This document shows, in pieces, positions 23,536 through 25,346 of a stretch of 64,000 nucleotides of DNA. The notes beneath the pieces are model-generated. The model was not told the origin of the DNA, did not search any database, and saw only the letters and a program-made list of their open reading frames with translations. Origin of the DNA: Acinetobacter baumannii (lineage in GTDB: Bacteria; Pseudomonadota; Gammaproteobacteria; Pseudomonadales; Moraxellaceae); assembly GCF_009759685.1 (NCBI RefSeq), contig NZ_CP046654.1, forward strand, positions 1,798,001 through 1,862,000, written 5' to 3'. A program made the position numbers and the translations under genes. The stretch's first letter is position 1. Every line of letters begins with the position of its first letter.

Positions 23536-24657
23536 ATGATTTATATCGAAGTACTGGCAGTAGTGGTGATTTGGTTAAGCTTCTGGTCACTTATTCCTCG
23601 TGATGAGTGGTGGTTTCGAGGTGCAGATTTTCCAAGATTACAAATTCTGTTTATTGGCTTAATTGCTTTAATTGGTATGTTGTTTTGGCCGACCGAATGG
23701 GATGTATGGCGTGAGCTTTTGCTTGCGGTACTCATCGCAGCGATTGCCTACCAACTTAAAATGGTTTTACCGTATACGCTGTTTTGGAAAAAACAGGTTA
23801 AAAAGGTCAAACAGCATCAGCTAGATCCTACAAAACAGATTTCACTGATAGTTTCTAATGTGCTCACCCCGAATGATAAATATCATTTATTACTTGAGCA
23901 TGTACGGACGTTGAAACCTGATTTATTGCTTACTTTAGAGAGCGATACAACTTGGGAAAATGCTTTAAAAGAGATCGAGAAAGATTATCCATACCGTGTG
24001 CCCGTACCTTTAGATAATTTATACGGGATGCATTTATATAGCCGGTTACCGCTTAAAAATACTGAGGTTAAATTCATTTTAAGTAATGAAATACCTTCTA
24101 TTCATACCACGGTAATTTTGCGATCTGGCATGCCTGTTCAGCTCTACTGTTTACATCCTAAGCCACCTAGCCCAACTGAAGCAAAAGATTCAACACTGCG
24201 TGACGCTGAGCTTTTAATTGTCGGAGACCAAATTAAAGATCTTGATGAAAGTTGTATTGTGATGGGGGATTTAAACGACGTAGCGTGGTCACGAACAACC
24301 CGTTTATTTCAACGTATTAGTGGGCTACTCGATCCACGAGTGGGGCGACATTTTATTAATACTTTTCATGCGGACTATCCTTTATTGCGCTGGTCACTTG
24401 ACCATATCTTTCATAGTACAGACTTCGGTTTAGTAAAAATGCAGCGTTTATCTCATATTGGATCAGACCATTTTCCTGTCTATGTCGTTTTACAAACAGG
24501 TCGAATATTTGAAGAGATTCACGAGGAATTAGAACAAACTCAAGCCGATGAAGAAGAAGCTCAAGCCGCGATACAAGAAGGTATTGCTAAAGCTGAAAAA
24601 GAAGAAAAAATCGTGACTGATGAAATTGCACAGCCTTATAAAGAGAAAAATATATAA
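23536..24657 (+). CDS. YafD-like endonuclease/exonuclease/phosphatase-family membrane protein
   Basis: This 373-residue protein has three N-terminal hydrophobic segments (about residues 1-20, 33-53 and 60-80). An EEP-fold domain follows with MGDLNDVAWS (Asn/Asp metal motif), SLDHIFHS and the final IGSDHFPVYV histidine motif. This is the arrangement of YafD-type proteins. The C-terminal 40 residues form an acidic, Glu/Ala-rich coiled coil. The catalytic fold suggests phosphodiesterase activity, but the substrate is unknown. Confidence 0.85.
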   Translation: MIYIEVLAVVVIWLSFWSLIPRDEWWFRGADFPRLQILFIGLIALIGMLFWPTEWDVWRELLLAVLIAAIAYQLKMVLPYTLFWKKQVKKVKQHQLDPTKQISLIVSNVLTPNDKYHLLLEHVRTLKPDLLLTLESDTTWENALKEIEKDYPYRVPVPLDNLYGMHLYSRLPLKNTEVKFILSNEIPSIHTTVILRSGMPVQLYCLHPKPPSPTEAKDSTLRDAELLIVGDQIKDLDESCIVMGDLNDVAWSRTTRLFQRISGLLDPRVGRHFINTFHADYPLLRWSLDHIFHSTDFGLVKMQRLSHIGSDHFPVYVVLQTGRIFEEIHEELEQTQADEEEAQAAIQEGIAKAEKEEKIVTDEIAQPYKEKNI

Positions 24658-24664
24658 AGTGAGT

Positions 24665-24682
24665 TGTAAGCAATAACGTACA
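24665..24682 (+). promoter_or_regulatory. GacA-box candidate (TGTAAG-N6-CGTACA)
   Basis: TGTAAGCAATAACGTACA matches the GacA upstream activating sequence TGTAAG-N6-CTTACA at 11 of 12 defined bases. Its centre is about 65 bp upstream of the predicted start of the sRNA at 24739, the spacing known for rsmY/rsmZ-type promoters. Confidence 0.7.
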
Positions 24683-24726
24683 AAGATTTGAGTCTAGGTC
24701 CAATAGGCAGACAGAGTTAAAACCCG

Positions 24727-24732
24727 TATTCT
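24727..24732 (+). promoter_or_regulatory. Predicted -10 element of the sRNA
   Basis: TATTCT, about 7 nt before the predicted start at 24739. No clear -35 is seen, which is expected for an activator-dependent promoter. Confidence 0.5.
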
Positions 24733-24738
24733 ACATTC

Positions 24739-24910
24739 ATCGGCACACGGAAGCGGGAATGGATAATCCCAAGTAAGGATGCACTAAGCTGATATGGAAC
24801 GACATCACGGATAAGATGTTAGAACGGAAGCGATAAAAAGAATTATATACCCTGAAAGCACAACCTCATTTACCCGAGTTTTGCAGGACGCAGAACTCGG
24901 GTTGATATTT
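24739..24910 (+). ncRNA. Csr/Rsm-type sRNA (CsrA-sequestering RNA) candidate
   Basis: About 170 nt without a good reading frame carry seven GGA motifs: ACGGAA 24747, ATGGAT 24759, AAGGAT 24775, ATGGAA 24794, ACGGAT 24807, ACGGAA 24824 and CAGGAC 24884. Three sit in hairpin loops: GGGA/TCCC around ATGGATAA (24755-24770), ACATC/GATGT around ACGGATAA (24802-24819), and the loop of the terminator. ANGGA in a loop is the CsrA/RsmA binding signature. With the GacA-type box upstream and the terminator, this has the architecture of RsmX/Y/Z and CsrB/C RNAs, which titrate CsrA. The exact 5' end is inferred. Confidence 0.75.
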
Positions 24911-24912
24911 TA
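24872..24912 (+). terminator. Terminator of the Csr/Rsm-type sRNA
   Basis: Nine-bp arms ACCCGAGTT/AACTCGGGT continue into a TGC/GCA pair with AGGAC at the tip, followed by TGATATTTT. The loop contains a GGA motif, as in known Csr RNAs. Confidence 0.8.
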
Positions 24913-25346
24913 TAGATATATCATTTAATTCGTTGTAAATAAAACCAATATTTTTAAGGTATTCTTAATTTTAAAATCTACTTAATTATAAGTCATCGTC
25001 CATAAATTTTTTTATATATCTGAGCAATTTTTAATGAAAATGGATACAAAAAACTTTTTTGTTAAGTTTTTGTTTTTATAGATTATTGACGGATAAATCT
25101 AGGCTTTGACCTATTTAGATATAAATTGGACTTGTTTAATTGGCAAATCTCAATAGAATGTGCCGATCGTTGACATGTTGGATCGTCAACAGGCATTGTT
25201 GTTTACTTCGCCGGATCGGCGGGTTGTGATTTGCTTGTGCATTTAAATTTCTGTTTGGAAATTCGTGTACATATTGAGGTTTCACTCTAAAGTAGTGGTC
25301 TTCTCCCTCTCATATTTGATACTTTGCGGTGCATAAGGATTGTCTT
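24913..25346 (+). other. Intergenic region and structured leader of the symporter gene
   Basis: The first 220 bp are AT-rich without visible signals. From about 25160 the sequence can fold: GTTGAC (25169-25174) pairs with GTCAAC (25185-25190), CGCCG pairs with CGGCG around GAT (25209-25221), and GCCGATC (25162-25168) is fully complementary to GATCGGC (25214-25220). The last two pairings exclude each other, so two alternative folds are possible in the presumed 5' UTR. The promoter was not identified. Confidence 0.45.

Follow-up and report, generated by a model that had tools for sequence, protein, structure and literature searches.

A putative Csr/Rsm-type RNA gene under a conserved GacA-type box in Acinetobacter baumannii, and its boxed sister units

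Does a short intergenic stretch of the Acinetobacter baumannii chromosome encode an RNA through which the Gac system could act on CsrA? The question arose from a prediction made on a 64,000-nt stretch of DNA (the window, whose numbering is used below for features of the forward strand), in which a GacA box, a promoter and a set of GGA motifs appeared to follow one another. In this species GacSA is reported to control 674 genes (PMC5295007), and growth on rich media is reported to require csrA (PMC12802169), though a csrA deletion has been made in strain ATCC 19606 (PMC8567240). The features described below make it highly probable, in our judgement, that the unit is a Csr/Rsm-type RNA gene, activated by GacA and titrating CsrA.

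The palindrome TGTAAG-CAATAA-CGTACA at 24665-24682 agrees at 11 of 12 positions with the published GacA site consensus, TGTAAG-N6-CTTACA (PMC4950607), so that the box with one mismatch is confirmed; a scan of the 64-kb window found no further site at 11/12 and two at 10/12. The proposed -10 hexamer, TATTCT, is present at 24727-24732, and a start near 24738-24740 puts the centre of the box about 65 nt upstream, in agreement with the distance given in the original prediction. A consensus promoter scan listed no -35/-10 pair at TATTCT (2 sites found, 3.5 expected). In 30 homologous loci the palindrome is always present, with 12/12 consensus positions in 4 of them, 11/12 in 22 and 10/12 in 4, and since the blastn match begins 3' of the box in 19 of the 30 (query start >43), the box is not what retrieved these loci. 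The distance from the box centre to the first aligned base of the RNA is 61 nt in 29 loci and 62 nt in one, and a TANNNT hexamer stands exactly 45 nt past the box in 29 of the 30. Between the box and the -10 hexamer, the 30 promoters aligned from the box share a further element with the column consensus CgaATag (24700-24706).

Downstream of this promoter lies a predicted non-coding RNA of about 170 nt at 24738-24912, delimited by an alignment of the homologues (A1; 30 rows, 29 of them distinct), with the start inferred at about 24738-24740; the covariance model R1, for which the window sequence is one of the 30 sequences used, matches 24735-24909. The unit was said to have no reading frame, and its longest closed frame is indeed only 6 codons. 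Seven GGA motifs had been claimed, six of them as ANGGA; the six ANGGA stand, while the full count is eight (24749, 24756, 24761, 24777, 24796, 24809, 24826 and 24886), the additional one at 24756 being in a stem. The number of ANGGA is clearly above that in dinucleotide shuffles (6 against 1.9, 16/5000 as high, p 0.0032), and for GGA alone the excess is smaller (8, compared with 5.3; p is 0.06 when dinucleotides are shuffled and 0.012 when mononucleotides are). No other stretch of 170 nt on either strand of the window has six ANGGA. The homologues carry 5.6 ANGGA per RNA against 1.8 in shuffles, and the eight GGAs, from 5' to 3', are kept in 30, 22, 28, 30, 13, 29, 21 and 30 of the 30 rows, that is, five of the eight in at least 28 loci.

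These motifs tend to be exposed. The mean unpaired probability of the GGAs is 0.74 against 0.50 in shuffles and is the higher value in all 30 sequences. Folding places GGAs in the loops ATGGATAA and ACGGATAA and in the terminator loop AGGAC, which is how the three short-stem loops had been described. Two motifs kept in all 30 rows, ACGGA (GGA at 24749-24751) and AAGGA (GGA at 24777-24779), have unpaired probabilities of 0.78-0.87 and 0.24-0.93, respectively. The segment 24738-24905 has a minimum free energy of -40 kcal/mol with a z of -2.46, and none of 200 shuffles is as good.

A structure of four helices was derived from A1, the same alignment on which it was then tested, and pairs 97.7% of the cells, and in 6 of its pairs both partners have changed; shuffles of A1 give 94.7% (0/500 as high) and 2.7 such pairs (2/500 as high), figures which are not probabilities because the rows are related. 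Versions of the structure slid along the alignment pair at most 45% of the cells, and further pair types are not above shuffles on A1 (15 against 13.6, 90/500 as high). Compensatory changes are found in three of the four helices. In the first, 24740-24744 pairs with 24788-24792 (99.3% of cells, 2 two-sided pairs). The second is the hairpin GGGA-AUGGAUAA-UCCC at 24755-24770, with the GGA of 24761 in its loop; 90.5% of its cells are paired, pair 23-36 is GC, AU or CG across the rows, and the outer pair 22-37 is broken in 9 of the 29 distinct rows. The third, CAUC-ACGGAUAA-GAUG at 24803-24818, exposes the GGA of 24809 (kept in 29/30) and is 99.1% paired, with no pair changed on both sides in A1. 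The fourth is an intrinsic terminator of 13 pairs at 24872-24902, paired in 98.9% of the cells with 3 pairs changed on both sides, which presents AGGA (24885-24888) in its loop, the GGA being kept in 30/30, just as predicted; the T tract 3' of it is broken (TTGATATTTTA). Before the terminator, the near-invariant GCACAACCUCAU (24858-24869 in A1) is single-stranded in the consensus; it resembles an anti-Shine-Dalgarno stretch.

The features by which Csr/Rsm RNA genes are recognised are found together here: several GGAs in loops or unpaired, a promoter that carries a GacA upstream activating sequence, present in every homologous locus and held at a fixed spacing, and, at the level of the predicted transcript, a non-coding unit closed by an intrinsic terminator. 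The architecture of RsmX/Y/Z and CsrB/C RNAs that had been proposed for the locus is supported by this conservation, which takes in the box and its spacing as well as the GGAs, their loops and the terminator.

The RNA is largely a possession of the genus. A blastn search with 24640-24930 hit 30 genomes out of 37 in the genus and none out of 21 others in the order; the seven genomes of the genus without a match nevertheless have a GacA-like gene, as do all 37. Among A. baumannii records the locus is 99.7-100% identical. Two records labelled as Acinetobacter phage contain the chromosomal locus and are probably mislabelled, as are probably four "plasmid" records with the locus, which are of 1.0-4.1 Mb and chromosome-like. 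The model R1, built without the promoter columns, was run over 149 genomes of the family and matched 35 of the same genus; among the same-genus genomes itemised, 41 in all, 6 have no match, and a further 88 genomes, not itemised, are also without one. Outside the genus it matched 6 genomes in three genera (g26, g31 and g32), one further g32 genome having no match. The promoters of these six and of five weaker same-genus matches have a box of 10-12/12 at exactly 61 nt in 10 of 11 cases (5/5 in the same genus, 4/4 in g31 with perfect boxes and 1/1 in g32), and the g26 match (L102) has no box at the expected place. Genus g31 appears to be Alkanindiges, three of its four genomes corresponding to named records of that genus and the fourth to a Moraxellaceae MAG; the RNA stands there behind a perfect box at an unchanged distance. 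The conservation called for across Acinetobacter is found and extends beyond it. A pattern scan of named genomes requiring a perfect box returned six stretches, from three Alkanindiges, two Moraxellaceae MAGs and Acinetobacter sedimenti, and in five of them the phosphatase-family gene that precedes the RNA in A. baumannii also stands upstream, the sixth ending before that position.

The unit appears not to be alone. In its own genome the pattern TGTANG-N6-CNTACA has 13 sites against 2 for the reversed pattern, and the strict consensus with one mismatch gives a weaker excess (13 against 7). Summed over the 37 same-genus genomes the sites number 286 against 97 for the control, which they outnumber in 36 of these genomes, and 34 against 43 in the 21 others; the excess is therefore specific to the genus. 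Ten of the 13 sites, including that of the window unit (A), precede RNA-like units, one of which is plasmid-borne, and the window RNA seems to belong to a set of about ten boxed RNA genes carried by this genome. Two of the units stand in tandem, B at C1:1747617 with 4 GGAs and C at C1:1747170 (L079:671-895), of about 155 nt with 3 GGAs. Six further chromosomal units, at C1:2240806, 1466351, 1467531, 1468200, 1572397 and 1079953, belong to one family (D), three of whose copies stand in a row. Three box sites were rejected as RNA genes: that at C1:3394119 is formed by the arms of a terminator hairpin, that at C1:3223112 lies inside a reading frame, and the perfect box at C1:1029 (1029-1046) is not followed at the usual distance by a convincing unit. 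By eye, a GGA-loop hairpin is present about 200 nt downstream of this last box, near the contig start, with a -10 spacing that does not fit.

Family D is CsrB-like. Its units are of 122-133 nt and have 4-6 GGAs, most of them following ACA, with CAGGA or CAGGAUG repeats, the latter of which we take to be the CsrB repeat, and ACAGGATGT in the terminator loop. A TANNNT at +45 is found in 6 of the 9 sister units, namely in all six of D and not in B, C or the plasmid copy. Matches to the family at E of 0.001 or less occur in 34 of the 37 same-genus genomes, some of them over the terminator only. A box of at least 10/12 stands at the expected place in 28 of 30 family D loci, compared with 3 of the 232 control windows. 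L058, one of the two loci lacking it there, is clipped, and a rough scan found a box of 11 in it. TANNNT at +45 is present in 26 of the 28 boxed loci. The B/C query matches 36 of the 37 genomes, spanning the box through C in 28 and covering only stretches close to the end of C in four, and C, despite being poor in GGA, keeps 76-100% identity from box through RNA in 28 of the 37.

The plasmid unit, at C2:2635 (2635-2870), is a family D copy on a pMAC-type plasmid; in a comparison over 271 bases, the genome's second contig (9,540 bases) proved identical to plasmid pMAC, which points to ATCC 19606 or a near relative as the strain. The family D copy matches 303 plasmid records, 302 of them named Acinetobacter. 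Six plasmid copies were examined, of which four are of the pMAC type with 1-3 GGAs and the others have 5 and 3; the four GGA-poor ones keep box and terminator. In four of these six plasmids the D copy is closely followed by an annotated RelE/ParE-type gene. On another stretch, an Rfam C4 antisense RNA (RF01695, 57 bits) is found at L076:4301-4386; the D copies located there lie some 1 kb away. Since B, C and the four pMAC-type copies are poor in GGA, the box alone need not mean a CsrA sponge, and the regulon defined by the box reaches beyond such sponges. As a tentative generalisation, which we offer without leaning towards it, the Csr system of Acinetobacter may be an expanded and mobile Gac-boxed set, made up of one long genus-wide RNA, a multicopy and partly plasmid-borne CsrB-like family and GGA-poor boxed RNAs, with plasmids tapping the host Gac signal to sponge CsrA or for another RNA function.

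That the window unit is transcribed, is activated by GacA and titrates CsrA we infer from this architecture. In the proposed mechanism, phosphorylated GacA would bind the palindrome and switch on a sigma-70-type promoter, the -10 hexamer of which is fixed 45 nt downstream of the box. The resulting transcript of about 170 nt would stop at the conserved terminator and, as covariation and folding suggest, would expose some 6-7 GGAs, in two hairpin loops, in the terminator loop and, for the rest, in linkers. By analogy with the known CsrB/RsmZ mechanism, CsrA dimers would bind these GGAs and so be drawn off their mRNA targets. The RNA would presumably act together with the further boxed RNAs, that is, the multicopy family with CAGGAUG repeats and the two less GGA-rich units.

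One element of the RNA is not accounted for by CsrA binding, namely GCACAACCUCAU, and we know of no near-invariant stretch of this type in Rsm RNAs. Its 12 nt, left unpaired in the consensus, and the existence of boxed units such as B and C that are not rich in GGA would suit a GacA-controlled RNA which acts mainly by base-pairing through this stretch, CsrA binding being secondary or absent. We regard this as improbable: the complement of GCACAACCUCAU with at most one mismatch is not clearly enriched on the two strands (7 + 10 sites, counting the gene of the RNA itself, against 7 + 3 for the reversed sequence), and such a function would leave five conserved, exposed GGAs unaccounted for.

A CsrA and a GacA-like regulator, partners for the proposed mechanism, are encoded in the genome. 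The single CsrA, of 84 aa and above the cut-off, keeps L4, R6, V42 and R44, which we take to be the RNA-binding residues. The regulator most similar to E. coli UvrY, at 48% identity, scores 267 bits with NCBIfam NF007018, its best of 98 families (the next gives 165 bits), and, as it does not reach the curated threshold of 280, is here named GacA-like. Its orthologs are found in all 37 same-genus genomes at 73-100% identity. The next frame on its strand resembles, by eye, a histidine kinase, an arrangement also described for gacA of A. baumannii (PMC5295007) and in favour of the assignment. With 15 UvrY matches in the genome, the best of them just under the GacA cut-off, one may ask whether the RNA is a CsrA sponge whose palindrome is read by some other NarL/LuxR-type regulator. 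This seems quite unlikely, as the best UvrY match reaches 206 bits and the second only 70, and the box equals the published GacA upstream activating sequence but for one base (PMC4950607, PMC4353343).

The gene upstream, of the endonuclease/exonuclease/phosphatase family (PF03372, 23536-24657, outside the RNA), precedes the RNA in 30 of 30 loci, and downstream lies gltP (NF008440, 25329-26633), which was found in only 5 of the 30 loci within the flank of about 1.5 kb examined. It is very improbable that the unit is merely a 3' UTR of the former or a leader of gltP lacking its own promoter: although the box begins 8 nt past the stop codon of the upstream gene, which is on the same strand and is the same gene in every locus, and the RNA follows at about 80 nt, the box, the -10 hexamer and their fixed spacing are all intergenic, a conserved terminator closes the unit, and gltP is, within that flank, too seldom the neighbour for a leader. 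The reading of the locus as a GacA-activated Csr/Rsm-type RNA gene is accordingly the one retained here.

With its promoter, predicted start, GGAs and terminator placed at defined positions, and its sister genes identified, the locus makes the step from GacSA to CsrA directly testable. Weak effects of single knock-outs would be accounted for by redundancy among the boxed RNAs, and the presence of copies on plasmids points to a route by which these may touch a global regulator.

The original prediction saw in this RNA the missing link between GacSA and CsrA, which overstates the case, since Csr RNAs of Acinetobacter had been predicted earlier and the genome has about ten boxed units, not one. 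A table in PMC7366521 gives RsmX, RsmY and RsmZ, along with CsrA, for A. baumannii by genome inspection, citing Kulkarni 2006, and PMC5568370 reports two predicted RsmA/CsrA-regulating RNAs in strain ADP1, at ACIAD0018/0019 and ACIAD2750/2751; the window locus itself has perhaps already been among such predictions. A literature search, covering few subscription papers, returned no experimental Csr RNA of Acinetobacter, and term searches of the accessible text of PMC11472050, PMC12802169 and PMC8567240, recent RNA interactome papers included, found none named. Compared solely through the names of neighbouring genes, none of AbsR1-31 (Sharma 2014, PMC3976366) resembles the locus.

In class membership the RNA stands apart from described families. 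No Rfam family matched the window at gathering score, and a permissive scan with E up to 10 gave two snoRNA matches far below gathering, while the same kind of scan recovered E. coli CsrB (RF00018) at 380 bits as a positive control; by sequence, therefore, the RNA belongs to no family so far described, and the proposed covariance check came out negative. Units B, C and D1 gave only below-gathering matches with E up to 5. The model R1, run with stricter filters over 194 genomes of the order, matched its own genome only and so offers no bridge to the Pseudomonas Rsm RNAs. With RsmX, RsmY and RsmZ of Pseudomonas the window RNA shares the 18-bp GacA upstream activating sequence, located at -75 in rsmY and -196 in rsmZ (PMC4950607), and its short length. 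Some species have several copies of RsmX (PMC7911923), and RsmY and RsmZ of SS101 likewise have eight GGAs, three of them in loops (PMC4353343). It differs from these RNAs in having no Rfam match and in being longer (about 170 nt against 118 and 133 nt; PMC4353343). E. coli CsrB, in contrast, is 369 nt and is found by its Rfam model, the window RNA being half as long and not found; the likeness lies in the multiple GGAs, by which the window RNA, too, would be expected to titrate CsrA. The RNAs predicted in ADP1 (PMC5568370) share with it the genus and the proposed function and, at 119 and 139 nt, are nearer in size to family D.
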